The translations under genes were made by a program, and so were the position numbers. From positions 1-33,654 of the forward strand of contig CAMDUT010000008.1 of assembly GCA_945877905.1 (NCBI GenBank): 33,654 bases of DNA, written 5' to 3'. Source of the DNA: Phycisphaera mikurensis NBRC 102666. Its GTDB lineage: Bacteria; Planctomycetota; Phycisphaerae; Phycisphaerales; SM1A02. The notes under the pieces are model-generated. The model saw only the letters and a list, made by a program, of their open reading frames with translations. It did no database searches and was not told where the DNA came from. Positions 1 through 27,282 of the stretch are shown one piece after another (position 1 is the first letter of the stretch; each line of letters begins with the position of its first letter).

Positions 1-686
1 TCGCGCAGCAGGTCGCGCACGGCCGCACGAAGCGCGTTCGCGACCCGGCGCGCCGCGTTCAGGCACTCGGCCTCGGTGCGCCCGGTGGCGCGCGCGACCT
101 CGCCATAGGTCATGCCGTCGACCACGTGCATCCGGAAGACCGCGTCGTCGTCGCCCTGGTCACGTGCCACGAGGTCGGCTTGCACCATCGCATAGGCCTC
201 GTTCGCGAGCGCGAGCGCCCACGCACGGTCGAACGCGTCGGCCGGCGCGTAGGCATCCGAGGCGAGCGCGCCTTCGATCGCCTCGAGGTCGGCGGGGAAC
301 TCGGTGCCGCGCTCTCGCTCTCGCTGCGCGTCGCGCATGACGCCGCGGCAGTGGAACGCCATCGCGTTCATGAGCCATCGCCGCAGCGGCATGCCGCTCG
401 CGCGCCAGCGCACGAAGAACGATGGGTCCGACATCGTTCGAGCGAAGAACCCGGACACCAGGTCGTCGCGCTCGCCGATGCGCCTGAGCTGCGGGGTGCT
501 GACATAGGCGGTGAGGGCCGTCGCGTACCGCCCCATCACGTGGCGGCGGAGCGCGTCGCGTGCGTTCGATGCACGCGCGGCGCCGGCCGAATCGCCCACG
601 CCCGCCGCGCGGTCACCATCCTCGGCGATGGTCAGCTGCGCATCGATCCAGGTGGCGTGGGTGGTGGGGAAGTGGTCGACTGGCAC
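1..686 (-). CDS. ECF-like RNA polymerase sigma factor (sigma-1), 3' end truncated by window edge; not in the ORF track
   Basis: Own translation of the minus strand from GTG at 684-686: VPVDHFPTTHATWIDAQLTIAE...LRRHVMGRYATALTAYV...DDLVSGFFARTMSDPSFFVRWRASGMPLRRWLMNAMAF...AVFRMHVVDGMTYGEVARATGRTEAECLNAARRVANALRAAV; clearly paralogous to 2428-3144. Confidence 0.85.
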   Translation of the reverse strand, partial: MPVDHFPTTHATWIDAQLTIAEDGDRAAGVGDSAGAARASNARDALRRHVMGRYATALTAYVSTPQLRRIGERDDLVSGFFARTMSDPSFFVRWRASGMPLRRWLMNAMAFHCRGVMRDAQRERERGTEFPADLEAIEGALASDAYAPADAFDRAWALALANEAYAMVQADLVARDQGDDDAVFRMHVVDGMTYGEVARATGRTEAECLNAARRVANALRAAVRDLLR

Positions 687-774: not shown

Positions 775-2421
775 TCAGTTCCCGCACGGCCCCCAGGTCG
801 CGAGCAGCAACCCGAGGTCATTGCCGTCGACCGCGCCGTCGCGGTTGACGTCGGCGGCGGTGCCGGCAGGTGCGGTGCCCCATGAGGAGAGCATGAGCCC
901 GAGGTCGGCGCCCTGGACGTAGCCGTCGGAGTTGAGGTCGGCGAAGCACTCGCAGCCGTCGGGGACGCCGTTGGCGTTGGCGTCGGGCCGCTCGCCACGG
1001 AGGATCTGGCCGTAGTCGACGATGCCGTCGGAGTCGCAGTCGGCGGACCACTCGACTGCGTACGCGCGCTCGCTTCCGTCGAAATCCCACACGTCCGCCC
1101 ATGTGCCCGGTGCTCCGATCGAAATGAACATCTCGACGTGAACGTCCCCGGGATTCCCGGGCTCACCCGGTCCCCATGGTTCGAACGACCACGGCGTCCC
1201 GTCGACCCATCCCCATGGGCAGCCGTCGCAGCGCCTGCCGCCGATGCACACGCGCCCCGCGAACACGCCGGAAGCCCTTGCCATCGTGAACACGAATTGA
1301 TTCTCGTTCCCGTCGGCGATCGAGGCGAGTTCCGCCCCGATGGACCTCGCCGCACCCACCTTGAAATCAAAGTTCGTTCGCGTTGTCGTCCGGAGCGTCC
1401 GGTACCAGTGGCCATTTCCTCCCTCGGTCGCACGCCACTCGACCGGATAGGCGCCCACCTCGCACGCAACGCCCCGCTCGCAGCAATCCGGCACGTTGTC
1501 GCCGTCGTAGTCGGGAAGCGACCCGTCGCGGCACTGGCCGTAGTCCACGATGCCGTCGTTGTTGCAGTCGGCGGACCATTCGATGACGAACGACGGGACG
1601 AGCCATGCGCCAAAGCACTCTCGCACATCCTGGACGTCGTTCCATCCATCGACGAGGAACGCGAGGAACCGCTCGTCTCCGCCGGGCCCGCACTCTGCGT
1701 GGTCGTTCGGTTCTCCGTCGATCCACTTCTCGAGTGCCCACGACTCCCCGGTGACCCATGTCCAGTTGGCCGCCGGACCGCCGTTCGGAATCGGTTGGAA
1801 CCCGCCGAGGACGGGTCCGAACCCACCGCTCCACGCTCCGGCGGTCGCCTGTGCCTGAGCGAGCACGAACGCGTGTTCGCTCGCGTTCGTGAGCGATGCG
1901 AGATGCCCACCTTCATGCAGCGCCGTCACGCGGCAGTCGTTCCACGTACGGGGGAAGCCTGCGGTTCTCACCGCATACCAATGCCCGTTCCCCCCATCCT
2001 CCGTGCGCCACTGCACCGCCTGCTGCGCGTTCGCCCCCGCCGCCATCGCCGCACCGGCGATCACCGTCGCTGCCTGGAACTTCATCGGAACGTCTCCTGT
2101 GGGATCACGGCGGGCAAGGGCGCCCGTCCTGGGGAGAGATCCGCGAATCACCGCTCCATGCTCCGGGCGCCCCGGAAGCGTCCTGCCCGCGCCCCACGCG
2201 ACGAGCACCGAAGCGGCGAGGAATGCCGCCATCCCTGTGATTCTCGGCCAACGGACCCCGGACGCCTGGCGCATGAACGGCGGTTCCTCGGCGACCGGAC
2301 GTGGCCCTGCGACCTCGGGCCACCCTGCGATGGCATCGTCCCACACACCCGCGAGGCGTCGCGCCGCCGGCCGGTCGATCGTCGTGCCCACGCCCGAGTG
2401 ATCCGCGCGACGGCCCTGCAT
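775..2421 (-). CDS. Tandem C-type-lectin-like domain protein with dockerin-like/EF-hand C-terminal tail; N-terminal TM extension 2086-2421 may be a fused or separate sigma-linked membrane segment (alternative start 2085, MKFQAATVIAGAAMAAGANAQQ)
   Basis: Two repeated modules (VQWRTEDGGNGHWY.../VEWRATEGGNGHWY...), each ending EWSADCxxDGIVDYGQ; tail DLNSDGYVQGADLGLMLSSWG...DVNRDGAVDGNDLGLLLATWGPC. Internal AGGAGA SD just upstream of ATG 2085. Confidence 0.75.
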   Translation of the reverse strand: MQGRRADHSGVGTTIDRPAARRLAGVWDDAIAGWPEVAGPRPVAEEPPFMRQASGVRWPRITGMAAFLAASVLVAWGAGRTLPGRPEHGAVIRGSLPRTGALARRDPTGDVPMKFQAATVIAGAAMAAGANAQQAVQWRTEDGGNGHWYAVRTAGFPRTWNDCRVTALHEGGHLASLTNASEHAFVLAQAQATAGAWSGGFGPVLGGFQPIPNGGPAANWTWVTGESWALEKWIDGEPNDHAECGPGGDERFLAFLVDGWNDVQDVRECFGAWLVPSFVIEWSADCNNDGIVDYGQCRDGSLPDYDGDNVPDCCERGVACEVGAYPVEWRATEGGNGHWYRTLRTTTRTNFDFKVGAARSIGAELASIADGNENQFVFTMARASGVFAGRVCIGGRRCDGCPWGWVDGTPWSFEPWGPGEPGNPGDVHVEMFISIGAPGTWADVWDFDGSERAYAVEWSADCDSDGIVDYGQILRGERPDANANGVPDGCECFADLNSDGYVQGADLGLMLSSWGTAPAGTAADVNRDGAVDGNDLGLLLATWGPCGN

Positions 2422-2427
2422 GCTCGC

Positions 2428-3144
2428 TCAGTCCGAGCGCACGATGCGCATGACCTCGAGCACCGCCTCCTCGACGTCGGCCGGCGGCACGCCGTCGTCG
2501 ACCAACGCATCGCGCAGCGCGTCGCGAACCCGTGCGGCGACCCGGCGCACCGCGTTCGCGCAGTCCTGGCGGCTCACACCGAGCTCGGCCGCGATCGACT
2601 CGTAGCGCTCGCCGTGGACCACGTGGCGCCGGAAGATCGCGTGCTCGTCGAGCCGCCCCGCCGCGTCGAGGTCCGCGTGGACCCGCGCGTGCGCCGCGTT
2701 GATCATCGACAGCGCCCACTCCGCGTCGAAGGCGCGCACGGCGTCGCGCTCGTCGACCGGCTCGGGGCCCGAGGCGCCTTCCGAACGCCCGCGCTCGCGC
2801 CCACGGTCGCGCGCGACGCCGCGCGCCCAGAACGAGATCCCGTTCATCATCCACCGCCGCAGCGGCTTGCCGCTCGCGCGCCAGCCGCGCAGGAACTCCG
2901 GGTCTCCCACGCGCTCCGCGAAGAACCCGGCGACGAGCTCGTCGGCGTCGCCCACCGCGCGCATCGAGCTCCCGCGCACGTAGGCGCGGAGCGCGCCGTG
3001 GTAGCGCTCCATGAGGTGCCTCCGCAGCGCCGCGACCGCGTTCGTCTCGCCCGGCCCGTCGCCCGCGGCGCGGCTGCGCTCGGCGATGGTCAGCTGCGCG
3101 TCGATCCAGGTGGCGTGGGTGCTTGGGAAGTGGTCGACGTGCAC
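2428..3144 (-). CDS. ECF-like RNA polymerase sigma factor (sigma-2)
   Basis: FPSTHATWIDAQL...ELVAGFFAERVGDPEFLRGWRASGKPLRRWMMNG...FRRHVVHGERYESIAAELGVSRQDCANAVRRV (region 2-like and region 4 HTH-like); GTG start. Confidence 0.85.
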   Translation of the reverse strand: MHVDHFPSTHATWIDAQLTIAERSRAAGDGPGETNAVAALRRHLMERYHGALRAYVRGSSMRAVGDADELVAGFFAERVGDPEFLRGWRASGKPLRRWMMNGISFWARGVARDRGRERGRSEGASGPEPVDERDAVRAFDAEWALSMINAAHARVHADLDAAGRLDEHAIFRRHVVHGERYESIAAELGVSRQDCANAVRRVAARVRDALRDALVDDGVPPADVEEAVLEVMRIVRSD

Positions 3145-3159
3145 GTCACGAGGGTAGCG
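3079..3159. repeat. 81-bp direct repeat, copy 2 (partner 621-701)
   Basis: See copy 1. Confidence 0.8.
3145..3156 (-). promoter_or_regulatory. Putative leaderless promoter -10: TACCCT-CGTGAC-GTG (sigma-2)
   Basis: TAnnnT-N6-start codon. Confidence 0.55.
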
Positions 3160-23021: not shown

Positions 23022-24833
23022 TTACTTCACGGGCGCCATGCGCACGCTTCGCAGGTTGATGAAGGAATCGCCCGCCTTGCGCCTCGCCTTCACCGCGAAT
23101 TCGCATGGGCCCGCCGGGAGCGCGATGCGCCCGAGCGGCAGGGCGGCGAAGTCCCCCCATCCCGCGCGCCCGGGCAGCTCGGCGGTGCCTCGGGCGACGT
23201 CCTTGCCCCCGGCGCGCACGATCCACTCCGCGGTGCCGCCGCACTCGGCGCTCGCGGCGTAGTCGATGGTCGCGTCGAACGTGCCCGCGGCCGGCATCGA
23301 GACGGGCCAGCGGGCCTCGCTCGCCATGTCACGCCACCAGCCGAGGTTCGCGAATCGGTCCTCGTACTGGATGCTGCCGGTGACGACGGCGTCGGCGGCC
23401 ATGCACGTGACCGAGCCGTCGGCCGCGGGCGTGACGGCGAAGGGCGTGACCTCGGGTTCGCCCTTGAGGTCGATGCGCACGACCGTGCAATCGGGGTCCG
23501 CGGGCGTCGCCCCGAGCCCCGAGACGACGATGGCGCCCGCGTCCTGCCTCACCGCGGGCGCGCGGTCCGTCGCACCGAGGACCTGCGCGCCCCACGCCGC
23601 GTTCGAGATGCCCTCGAGCCGCAGGGTGCCGTCGGCCGGCCAGTCGAAGACGTGCAGGTAGAGCCGGGTGGCGTCCTTCCACTCGCCCTTCAGGCTGCGC
23701 ATGGTGGCGCGTCCCCACGGCAGCTTCTTCGTGAAGGGCGAGGCCTGCGTGCCGCGGATCGACTCGCCGTTGACGCGCATCCACTCGCCCATGCGCCTCA
23801 GGCGCTCGACCGACTCCGCGGGGATGGTGCCGTCGCCCTTCGGGCCCACGTTCAGGAGGAAGTTCCCGCCCTTCGAAGCGATGTCGCAGAGCATGCGGAT
23901 CATCGCCTGCGCGCTCTTCCAGTTGCCGTCCGACGCCTTGTACCCCCAGGTGTCGTTCATGGTCATGCACGTCTCCCAGTCCTTGCCTGGCATGCCGTTG
24001 GGGGGAATGGTCTGCTCGGGCGTGCCGTAGTCGCCGCGCGCGTGCTCGTCGGCCGTGAAGCCCTCCATGCCGGCGCGGCCGCTGTCGACGCGGTTGTTGA
24101 CGATGATCCGCGGCTGGAGCGATCGCACGAAGTCGTCGGTCCTCTTGCCCCAGTCATGGTTCCAGGTGCCCTCCCACTCGCCGTCGAACCACAGGATGCC
24201 GATGTCGCCGTAGTTCGTGAGGAGCTCGCGCAGCTGCGCGAACATGAAGTCGACGTAGCGCGGGAACGACGCCGGGTCCACGGGCCGCGCGTCCCATTCC
24301 CGGCGCGGCTGGTAGTCCGGGTGGTGCCAGTCCATGATCGAGTGGTACCAGCAGATGCGGAGCCCCTCGGCGCGCACCGCATCGGAGAGCTCCTTCATGA
24401 TGTCGCGCCGGAAGGGCGTGGCCATCACGTCGTACTCGCCGGCGGCGCTGTCCCACAGCGCGAACCCGTCATGGTGCTTGGTGGTGATGACCACGTAGCC
24501 CATGCCCGCGTCCTTGGCGATGCGCGCCCATTCGCGCGCGTCGAAGTTCACGGGGTTGAAGCGCGGGACCAGCTCCTTCTCGTACGCGATCGGGTCGATG
24601 CGCGCGTTCTGGAGGAGCCATTCGCCGACGCCCCCGACGGGCTTGCCGTCCCACGTTCCGGCGGGCGTCGAGTACAGCCCGAAGTGGATGAACATCCCGA
24701 AGCGCGCGTCGCGCCACCAGGCGAGGCGCTCGTCCTTCGGCGGCACGGCGGGCGGTGCGCCGGGGGGTCCGGACGCGGCCAGGAGCAGGGCAGCGACGGC
24801 GGCGGCGGAAGCGGCGGCGAGCGGGGTGCGCAT
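23022..24833 (-). CDS. Alpha-L-fucosidase, GH29, exported
   Basis: WWRDARFGMFIHFGLYSTPAGTW, YVVITTKHHDGFALWDS, ILWFDGEWEGTWNHDWG, GGNFLLNVGPKGDGTIP; N-terminal signal peptide. Confidence 0.92.
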   Translation of the reverse strand: MRTPLAAASAAAVAALLLAASGPPGAPPAVPPKDERLAWWRDARFGMFIHFGLYSTPAGTWDGKPVGGVGEWLLQNARIDPIAYEKELVPRFNPVNFDAREWARIAKDAGMGYVVITTKHHDGFALWDSAAGEYDVMATPFRRDIMKELSDAVRAEGLRICWYHSIMDWHHPDYQPRREWDARPVDPASFPRYVDFMFAQLRELLTNYGDIGILWFDGEWEGTWNHDWGKRTDDFVRSLQPRIIVNNRVDSGRAGMEGFTADEHARGDYGTPEQTIPPNGMPGKDWETCMTMNDTWGYKASDGNWKSAQAMIRMLCDIASKGGNFLLNVGPKGDGTIPAESVERLRRMGEWMRVNGESIRGTQASPFTKKLPWGRATMRSLKGEWKDATRLYLHVFDWPADGTLRLEGISNAAWGAQVLGATDRAPAVRQDAGAIVVSGLGATPADPDCTVVRIDLKGEPEVTPFAVTPAADGSVTCMAADAVVTGSIQYEDRFANLGWWRDMASEARWPVSMPAAGTFDATIDYAASAECGGTAEWIVRAGGKDVARGTAELPGRAGWGDFAALPLGRIALPAGPCEFAVKARRKAGDSFINLRSVRMAPVK

Positions 24834-24896: not shown

Positions 24897-26522
24897 TCAG
24901 CCCGGGCAGGGGCCCCAGGACTCCAGCATGGTCGCCAGATCGGCGCCGTCGACGATGCCGTCGCCGTTCATGTCCGCCTGCTCGGCGACGGGTGCCGCGC
25001 CCCATCGCGCAAGCAGCAGGCCGAGGTCCGCGCCATCCACGGTGCGCGATCGGTCTACGTCACCCTCGCAGCACGCGTTCGACTCGACGAGGCCGGAGAC
25101 CGAGATCTCAGGTCCGGTCACGTCGCACTGAAGCGCGCAGAACGTGGAGCGTGCGATGATCGAACCAGGCGCCGCGGCGGACACGGGCGCGCGCACGCAT
25201 CCCGACCATGAGCCGAAGCCAGGAAGTGTCTTGAGGAGCGAAGAAGCGAAGGAACCCGCGAAGCGTGAATCCTGGACGATCGCTCCCGAGTCGAAGACGC
25301 ACGCGACGTCCGCGATGGCTGAACCATTCGTGTCCGGCGCCTTCTCGGCGCGGTTGGCGTTGAAGTCGCAGGAGCGCACTTCGTGCAGCGCGGCTGCACC
25401 GTCGATTCCGAAGCAGATGGCGCCGTTCGCGGAGCCGGCACCTTGGTAATAGCTGTTGTTCGAGATCGTGTGCGCGAGGTTCCCGGTGATTGCGCACGAG
25501 TCAACGATGAACCGCTGACCCGTCGGGCTCGCGAGCGAGAGCGCCGACCCAAACGCGCTTGCGATCGGACCGAGCCCGTTCACGGACGAATGCACCCGGT
25601 TCGCGTCGAATCGGCAGCGTGAAATGACGCCGCTTGACCACCGTGCCGCGATGGCACCGCCGTTCGCCCTCGCCTCGGCCCACGAGGCGCCGGGGACGAC
25701 CGTCGATACGAGGTTCTCGGCGAACACGCAGTCCTCGACCAGCACGTCACAATGGTCGAGCATCACGGCGCCGCCGAATCCGAACGGGTAGCCGTTGGCG
25801 GACAGATCAACGCGATTGTCGAGGAAGGTGCTCGACGCGATCGTGACCGCACATGTCGATGCGTACACCGCGCCTCCGCCGTATGTTCCATGCCCGCCGG
25901 TCACGCGATTGCCGGTGAACTCGCACTCGCTGATCTCGAGCACGGAATTCGACGCACGGAGCGCCGCACCGAGTGGACCAGCATCGCACCCGATGACCCG
26001 CAGGCCGCTGATTCGCACGCCAGGCGAAGGAACGTCGTTGATGATGAGCCCCGACCCACCGCCGCCATCGATGGTCACGGCGGGCCCCGAAGACCGAATC
26101 GTGAGAGCCTTCCCGTTGATCGTGATTCCACCGGCGTGCGAGCCATCCGCAACGATGATCTCATCACCGCTCATGGCGGCCGCGACGGCATCTTGAATCG
26201 TCGGATACTGCTCAGGAACCCGGATCTCGGAAGCCAGGACGGGGGAGGCGGCGCAGATCAGCGACTGCGCGCACAGCAGCAGCGTGCGGTTCATGCAGGG
26301 TCTTTCCTTGTCGTGCGAAATCAACTCGGTACGGCCGTCGAGAGAGGCCGACCGAAGGGATTTCGACGGCATGATTCCCGCAAAAAGAAGTGCGATGGCG
26401 ACGATTCCCCCAAGCAGGCGACTCAAGGAAGCCGCGGGGCCCCGGCCGGGCTCATCGAGGGCAATTCGCCGGAAGGCCGCAAGTTCTCGGTCACCGGGCC
26501 TGAGGGAGCTAGGCACGGGCAT
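24897..26522 (-). CDS. Right-handed parallel beta-helix surface protein with dockerin-like WGPC tail; N-terminal TM extension from 26522, alternative signal-peptide start at 26294 (MNRTLLLCAQSLICAASPVLA)
   Basis: IRVPEQYPTIQDAVAAAMSGDEIIVADGSHAGGITINGKALTIRSSG..., CEFTGNRV, CVFAENLV; tail DVDRSRTVDGADLGLLLARWG...DMNGDGIVDGADLATMLESWGPC. Confidence 0.78.
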   Translation of the reverse strand: MPVPSSLRPGDRELAAFRRIALDEPGRGPAASLSRLLGGIVAIALLFAGIMPSKSLRSASLDGRTELISHDKERPCMNRTLLLCAQSLICAASPVLASEIRVPEQYPTIQDAVAAAMSGDEIIVADGSHAGGITINGKALTIRSSGPAVTIDGGGGSGLIINDVPSPGVRISGLRVIGCDAGPLGAALRASNSVLEISECEFTGNRVTGGHGTYGGGAVYASTCAVTIASSTFLDNRVDLSANGYPFGFGGAVMLDHCDVLVEDCVFAENLVSTVVPGASWAEARANGGAIAARWSSGVISRCRFDANRVHSSVNGLGPIASAFGSALSLASPTGQRFIVDSCAITGNLAHTISNNSYYQGAGSANGAICFGIDGAAALHEVRSCDFNANRAEKAPDTNGSAIADVACVFDSGAIVQDSRFAGSFASSLLKTLPGFGSWSGCVRAPVSAAAPGSIIARSTFCALQCDVTGPEISVSGLVESNACCEGDVDRSRTVDGADLGLLLARWGAAPVAEQADMNGDGIVDGADLATMLESWGPCPG

Positions 26523-27282
26523 CCGGATCGATGAACGAGGCGATGCGCCGAAGCTCCGTTTCGACGTCATCGGCCGAGATCCCGTCTCGGAGGATCAGGC
26601 GACGCAACGCCGCCCGCACGCGGTTCGAGATCGTCCGCACCACCACCGCCGCGCGCGCGGGCTCGAACCCGGTCTCGTCGACGAGCAGCGCGTACGGTTG
26701 CCCGTCGAGCACGTGCCGACGGAAGAGGAGCCAGCGGTCGGACTCGCCGTCGGCGTTGCAGATCGTCTCGACCTCCTCGCACGCCTCGCGCAGGATCGAG
26801 ACCGCCCACGCACGCTCGAAGGCGGCCTCCGCCTCGGGCTCGGGAGATTCGAGCAGGTCGATCGGGTCATCGTCGCCGGAGCCCGGCTCCGCGAAGGCCC
26901 TTGCCTCGCGCACCTCGTTCATGCCGCGCCTCGCCGCACGCCTGCGTCGCCGCACCTCCTCGCGCATGCTCAGGATCAGTCCGTTGATGAGCCATCGTCG
27001 TAACGGCATCCCGCTCGCGCGCCACGCGTCGAGGTAGTCGTCGCGCGCGAAGCGGCTCACGAAGAACGCGCTGACCAGCTCGGCGCTCTCGCCGAGCCCG
27101 CGGTACGAGCTGCCCTTCACGTAGATGCGCAGCGGCTCGAAGTAGCGCGCCATCACCACGCTTCGGAGGGCGCGACGCGCCTCCTCGTCGCGGTCGAGCT
27201 GCTGATGCATCCACGTGGCGTCGGTGGTCGGGAATGCGTCTTCGGCGGGCATGGGGCGCTCGAGATAGGCCGGATGCAACAT
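26509..27282 (-). CDS. ECF-like RNA polymerase sigma factor (sigma-3)
   Basis: FPTTDATWMHQQLDRDEEARRALRSVVMARYFEPLRIYV...ELVSAFFVSRFARDDYLDAWRASGMPLRRWLINGLILSMREEV...LFRRHVLDGQPYALLVDETGFEPARAAVVVRTISNRV. Confidence 0.83.
   Translation of the reverse strand: MLHPAYLERPMPAEDAFPTTDATWMHQQLDRDEEARRALRSVVMARYFEPLRIYVKGSSYRGLGESAELVSAFFVSRFARDDYLDAWRASGMPLRRWLINGLILSMREEVRRRRRAARRGMNEVREARAFAEPGSGDDDPIDLLESPEPEAEAAFERAWAVSILREACEEVETICNADGESDRWLLFRRHVLDGQPYALLVDETGFEPARAAVVVRTISNRVRAALRRLILRDGISADDVETELRRIASFIDPDARA

Follow-up and report, generated by a model that had tools for sequence, protein, structure and literature searches.

A candidate sigma-linked membrane sensor in a planctomycete, with an internal start for a secreted form and exchanged outer domains

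Results

The window analysed here, a stretch of 33,654 nucleotides, is an entire contig (C8) of a draft genome of 2.47 Mb. It contains a sigma gene followed by a long open reading frame (ORF), a second such cassette, and part of a third. The features of the first cassette are the following:

3151-3156, minus strand: TACCCT, −10-like, of a predicted leaderless-type promoter, 6 nt 5′ of the sigma-2 start codon
2428-3144, minus strand: sigma-2, a predicted ECF-type sigma factor, from a GTG start at 3144 to a TGA stop at 2430-2428
775-2421, minus strand: long ORF of 548 aa, stop-free through a cytoplasmic stretch, a transmembrane helix (TM1), a linker, an internal signal peptide, two C-type-lectin modules and a dockerin
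2233-2421, minus strand: cytoplasmic N-terminal stretch of 63 aa with the helix motif IDRPAARRLAG, common to the cassettes; candidate sigma-binding segment
2185-2232, minus strand: TM1, MAAFLAASVLVAWGAG, residues 64-79, with a positive-inside bias for N-in
2086-2184, minus strand: extracytoplasmic linker, differing in length by steps of 3 among cassettes
2134-2160, minus strand: DNA element CATG-N14-GGATCTCTC, candidate internal promoter within the coding sequence (from the Gibbs motif, codon bias and an own-genome match)
2094-2098, minus strand: Shine-Dalgarno sequence AGGAG for the internal start, of a kind enriched in the cassettes
2026-2085, minus strand: internal ATG (2085-2083) and signal peptide MKFQAATVIAGAAMAAGANA
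1699-1950, minus strand: C-type-lectin module 1 (Pfam Lectin_C, 8e-4, slightly under the cut-off)
1051-1449, minus strand: C-type-lectin-like module 2, approximate limits, with the YPVEWRATEGGNGHWY repeat of module 1
805-939, minus strand: type I dockerin (Pfam Dockerin_1, 2.3e-5)

A sequence-only reading of this stretch had described sigma-2 as ending 6 nt before the ATG at 2421, and the frame opening there as running without a stop through a TM helix into two lectin modules and a dockerin-like tail. All of this is found to be correct, with the Lectin_C score of module 1 just short of the cut-off (20.5 vs 22.6 bits) and that of Dockerin_1 above it (25.0 vs 22.9 bits). That reading does not mention the internal ATG at 2085, which has a Shine-Dalgarno sequence and a signal peptide of its own and is a second start in the long-ORF gene that should yield a secreted form.

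The second and third cassettes are represented by these features:

26509-27252, minus strand: sigma-3, second cassette
24897-26522, minus strand: long ORF of the second cassette, beta-helix and dockerin, with its ATG at 26522 overlapping the sigma-3 end
26417-26373, minus strand: TM1
26348-26340, minus strand: DNA element GCCTCTCTC
26309-26305, minus strand: Shine-Dalgarno-like AAGGA
26294-26232, minus strand: internal ATG at 26294 and signal peptide
3-683, minus strand: sigma-1, third cassette, truncated by the contig end

The layout had earlier been said to recur at 24897-27282, and it does so, with the sigma start now at 27252 instead of 27282. The repeat is not exact, as the ORF here overlaps the end of the sigma gene and the ectodomain has no lectin, consisting of a beta-helix and a dockerin below the cut-off (20.4 vs 22.9 bits, Pfam). 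Sigma-1 continues on contig C32 (locus L011) with a 100% overlap, and the same layout is found 3′ of it, the ectodomain there being of the LamG/CTLD/dockerin kind. On another contig of the same genome (C50, 7700-8830, L009), a DUF433/PIN-like pair lies between a sigma paralogue and an anchor-lectin ORF.

TACCCT stands at the equal position 5′ of most sigma genes in the window's genus. Immediately 3′ of the second cassette, and likewise on the minus strand, lies an alpha-L-fucosidase gene (23022-24833; Pfam PF01120, 8.7e-95), whose ATG at 24833 is preceded by TACCCT (TACCCT-N6-ATG), as in these sigma genes. Since TACCCT precedes the fucosidase gene too, it looks general in this genus.

We modelled sigma-2 with AlphaFold (AF2) on an alignment of 66 relatives, obtaining a pLDDT of 93.8. 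The top PDB matches of the model in Foldseek are the ECF sigmas SigL, AlgU/MucA and sigmaE/RseA (prob 0.84-1.0, best E 0.014), and anti-sigma factors are present in several of the matched structures. The TIGR02937 profile matches 36 of the 66 family members, the window copy lying under the cut-off, and Pfam finds region 4.2 alone in sigma-2, likewise under the cut-off. In the N-terminal FPxT helix of these sigmas F, P and T are invariant. According to the model, sigma-2 is an ECF-type sigma factor with a two-domain sigma2-sigma4 fold.

We now turn to the relatives, from which 61 cassettes were collected in three main genera (g1, g42 and g45) and at a few single loci. TM1 and the internal start share a stop-free frame in 59 of the 61, a count that, like the other counts and p-values given here, takes related loci as independent and hence overstates the support somewhat. 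Between the DNA element and the internal ATG, 22 different spacings occur, of which 20 are divisible by 3; the other two belong to the frame-broken loci L057 and L127. The frame between sigma gene and ORF varies freely, being distributed 23/18/7 over the three phases. For a held-out set of loci, the start was picked by a fixed rule that ignores the upstream frame, and all of those with a strong TM1 (13/13) turned out to be in frame and open; among the held-out loci without a start that qualified under the rule, no case was seen in which a TM protein is closed by a stop and a secreted protein follows. By these frame counts the layout exceeds chance, which the sequence-only reading had called less likely on the grounds of the recurrence within the window.

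The N-terminal stretch together with TM1 is under purifying selection (pooled pN/pS 0.38, p = 7e-10). Lys and Arg are commoner on the N side of TM1 in 48 of the 53 informative loci, as expected for N-in, which is the predicted topology. On this comparative evidence, the long frame is under selection.

The sequence-only reading had named a stop between the TM stretch and the secreted protein in relatives as one observation that would speak against it. The outcome is mixed, mostly favourable. At L062 there is a stand-alone TM protein of 68 aa with a related motif, closed by a stop and lacking an ectodomain, and at L057 and L127 the frame is broken exactly at the internal start with both parts intact; the remaining cassettes are continuous.

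A separate arrangement is seen at L116 (genome G148). Here the sigma gene is followed by an anchored RCC1 protein of 397 aa without an internal signal peptide, and a second gene encodes a separate secreted RCC1/beta-helix/dockerin/FGE protein. Over 298 aa, the RCC1 parts of the anchored and the secreted protein share 50% identity. The DNA element is in this case located in the intergenic gap 5′ of the secreted gene, where 5 of 300 shuffles reach its score. This split into two genes supports the notion that both products are wanted.

The internal ATG is preceded by a Shine-Dalgarno sequence in 49 of the 61 cassettes (80%), as compared to 12% of 1309 control ATGs, and it stands in one codon phase at 24 loci and in another at 21. 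A signal peptide follows the internal ATG in the cassettes. Unbiased Gibbs sampling of the 280 bases upstream of the internal ATG in the 61 cassettes gave one element, with the end G[GC][AC]T[CT]T[CA]TC and with CATG 14 bases before it. The Ser codon at the element is TCN in 39/39 cases and TCT in 22/39 (56% vs 8% background, p = 9e-15), the Gly wobble positions are A or C only, and synonymous change is lower in the linker (0.109) than in the N-terminal stretch plus TM1 (0.222, p = 5e-4). Judging from these codon patterns, the constraint on the element acts at the DNA level, and we therefore reject the alternative that the GS[ILFVP] of the linker is mainly a protein site, such as a protease or sorting signal.

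In one g45 subclade both boxes, 16 bases apart, are found about 6 bases before the sigma start codons, and 16 nt is a box spacing typical of ECF promoters. When 12 g45 genomes are searched with ACATG-N14-GCAT[AC]TCTC, 10 of the 11 matches fall within cassettes, either about 6 nt 5′ of the sigma start codon or at the internal site. Because it adjoins the sigma start codon in this subclade, the element looks like an ECF-type promoter, and its positions fit a use as such at both the sigma start and the internal site. The recurrent element CATG-N14-GGATCTCTC contains neither AAC nor CGT, a feature of ECF promoters; an AAC/CGT-type promoter is now not a requirement for ECF sigmas (PMC8103513). For the window's genus, the idea of a common element 5′ of the sigma genes and inside the ORF was discarded, as none was found and TACCCT stands at the start codon instead, and autoregulation is hence suggested only for the one g45 subclade. 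The strict element pattern gave few scattered matches in the genomes of the genus, and no further target genes of a regulon were recognised among them.

We have also compared close pairs of cassettes. In most of them the sigma genes share 91-96% of their DNA sequence, and the anchor heads share 85-96%. Beyond the signal peptide the value falls to 40-60%, within 60-150 bases of the internal start codon. The loci L048, L050 and L052 have 95-96% identity in both the sigma gene and the head at the DNA level, and three unrelated ectodomains (FGE-like/unknown, RCC1 and lectin, respectively). Of the pairs whose sigma proteins are 93% identical or more, L101/L104 alone keeps its ectodomain. The ectodomains comprise LamG, CTLD, RCC1, FGE-sulfatase, TIG, beta-helix and DUF642 domains (Pfam), mostly with a dockerin. 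According to these alignments, the sigma and the anchor form a constant head, and the ectodomain is swapped between species just past the signal peptide. The earlier proposal of a membrane-anchored lectin signalling to the sigma factor is in part retained: an anchored surface protein is the conserved partner of this sigma clade, but its outer domain is not necessarily a lectin.

A number of further arrangements were observed around the sigma genes. One contig (C4 of G013, L041) has four sigma/anchor/ectodomain cassettes in tandem over about 10 kb. At six g45 loci (L061, L106, L107, L109, L112 and L134) a nucleotidyltransferase/HepT pair, a toxin-antitoxin-like insertion, sits between the sigma gene and an intact anchor ORF; the two domains are Pfam-confirmed in L061 and assigned by position and similarity only in the other five. 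Sister sigmas at L063, L064, L066, L068, L074, L076, L079, L117, L121 and L132 are followed, with an ATGA overlap, by a conserved soluble protein of 155-200 aa, which may be their partner and which has no Pfam match in L068. At L010, L073 and L196 the genes after the sister sigmas encode Ser/Thr kinases with one TM helix.

The cytoplasmic stretch is generally short, 25-60 aa. No Pfam match at E <= 1 is obtained for the N-terminal 113 aa that contain it: neither a known anti-sigma domain nor the RsgI N-terminal domain is present there, and Pfam finds no FecR domain in the long ORF. A conserved single-TM protein adjoins the sigma, and the divergence of the sigma correlates with that of the anchor head (r = 0.71) and less with that of the ectodomain (r = 0.32). 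The conserved helix motif under purifying selection and this co-divergence suggest a contact between sigma and anchor, although physical linkage also yields co-divergence. By eye, the soluble proteins of 155-170 aa that accompany sister sigmas seemed to contain a helix like this motif; their motif score is not significant, and a shared sigma-binding helix is thus not established.

Discussion

The reading that we consider, by a small measure, probable is an RsgI-like membrane sensor linked to a sigma factor, whose gene also gives a secreted form. In this model the cell would co-produce an ECF-type sigma and a membrane protein with a single TM pass. The helix in the short cytoplasmic part of that protein would hold the sigma, and its exported outer domain would probe the environment. 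Once a ligand is bound outside, the sigma would be set free, possibly by way of the site-2 proteases that are encoded in the genome, as they are in nearly all genomes. The released sigma would raise the expression of its own cassette, including the secreted form. This form would arise from the second control region within the gene (promoter-like element, Shine-Dalgarno sequence, ATG and signal peptide) as a copy of the outer domain lacking the anchor, and it may serve as part of a surface adhesin or enzyme, or weaken the signal by competing in soluble form. The outer domains would be exchanged by recombination, with the head of sigma, anchor and internal start kept. Several points weigh against the sensor model. 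The cytoplasmic stretch contains no anti-sigma domain of a known kind and is short; the soluble partners of sister sigmas do not share its helix motif by score; the internal signal peptide would be a second hydrophobic segment in the long form; the sigma genes of the window's genus carry TACCCT at the start codon and not the internal element; and no targets beyond the cassettes were recognised.

It is a possibility, to which we give somewhat less than even weight, that the entire family works in this manner, i.e. that a single frame, by means of an internal start and of a promoter that lies within it and is used by the paired sigma, gives both a sigma-controlling receptor and a secreted version of the receptor's sensing domain, the domains being exchanged between species while the head stays constant.

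Several other explanations have to be weighed. The anchor might be nothing but a tether for secretion or display in a repertoire of surface proteins, with a sigma that only activates its own neighbour and no sensing at all. The diverse, dockerin-tailed ectodomains would suit this, as would the fact that no regulon is recognised outside the cassette; the conserved cytoplasmic helix motif under purifying selection suggests contact with the sigma, and so does the co-divergence of head and sigma, with the reservation about linkage made above. We regard this explanation as somewhat unlikely. Unlikely, too, is a chance in-frame joining of two ordinary adjacent genes, one for a small membrane anti-sigma factor or other peptide and one that is read from a promoter of its own and encodes a secreted dockerin protein, of which only the small protein and the secreted form would matter. 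The secreted part does have its own Shine-Dalgarno sequence, signal peptide and promoter-like element, L062 has the small TM protein alone, ending in a stop, and in L057 and L127 the frame is broken at the internal start with both parts kept intact. Against this stand the frame conserved in the cassettes and the held-out loci over linkers of 16-63 aa, the anchored ectodomain without a signal peptide in L116, and the fact that a single mutation could place a stop after TM1, which is seen in no cassette with a secreted domain.

The opposite view, that the long form is the sole product, with the internal ATG and Shine-Dalgarno sequence incidental and the second hydrophobic stretch a cleavage site releasing the ectodomain, would also account for the frame conservation, and there are AxA-type sites in the hydrophobic stretch 3′ of TM1. 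We find it very unlikely, considering the enrichment of the Shine-Dalgarno sequence in two codon phases, the constrained synonymous sites and the split genes of L116. As to the DNA element, it lies in the constant head just 5′ of the exchanged part, and could for that reason be no promoter but a site at which recombination, or some other DNA binding linked to the exchange, takes place. However, the identity breaks 60-150 nt past the internal ATG and not at the element, the CATG and ATCTC boxes have the spacing of ECF promoters, and in g45 the element is placed before the sigma start codons like the −10 of leaderless genes, which makes this option rather improbable.

Sigma-based surface sensing via carbohydrate-binding receptors is best known from cellulolytic clostridia. 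The cassettes resemble the SigI/RsgI systems of Clostridium thermocellum and relatives in having many paralogous pairs, a single-TM anti-sigma position with a short cytoplasmic part, diverse carbohydrate-binding outer modules and a dockerin/cohesin setting; in SigI/RsgI the sigma autoregulates (PMC6056542, PMC12203970). The anchor follows the RsgI layout of cytoplasmic segment, single TM and outer substrate-binding-type module, according to its predicted topology. It differs in that the sigma is ECF-type and not SigI, that the cytoplasmic part has no Pfam match, that the linker of 16-63 aa is too small for the autocleaving periplasmic domain of RsgI, that an internal start and a promoter-like element are present for a secreted copy, and that the ectodomains are exchanged behind a constant head. 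CnrY, of the class II anti-sigma factors, whose two helices wrap around sigma4 and sigma2, has to our knowledge no large exchangeable ectodomain. The CnrH/CnrY pair is otherwise similar, with a very short cytoplasmic segment, one TM helix and an adjacent ECF sigma, and CnrY demonstrates that a segment as short can inhibit an ECF sigma (PMC7406223).

FecI/FecR-type pairs, including the FecR-LamG proteins of Planctomycetes, also combine an ECF sigma with a neighbouring membrane protein that senses through an outer domain. They are alike in this pairing, whereas the cassette anchor lacks the FecR domain; in layout the anchor is like RsgI and FecR, and by its domains it is neither. Planctomycetes ECF sigmas are known to be paired with Ser/Thr kinases or to bear N-terminal extensions (PMC8103513). 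Sister sigmas with kinases (L010, L073) and the conserved N-terminal FPxT helix recall these, while the partner in the cassettes is an anchored surface protein. In the open-access literature we found no paper that combines Planctomycetes, an anti-sigma factor and a lectin, or an anti-sigma factor, an internal promoter and an ectodomain. We know of no such sensing system with a nested promoter and start for a soluble receptor twin, or with rapid exchange of the sensing domain.

If the sensor model is true, a further group of bacteria would join those with sigma-linked surface sensing by carbohydrate receptors, and in it a soluble twin of the receptor would be made from a nested promoter and start. 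The sensing domain would exchange rapidly with sigma and anchor constant, and since the head is kept while the outer domains exchange, the repertoire of sensed surfaces could change fast. The cassettes would constitute a naturally occurring collection of sensor heads that have repeatedly been fitted with outer domains, and would offer a testable account of a part of the numerous sigma factors in such genomes that lack an explanation.
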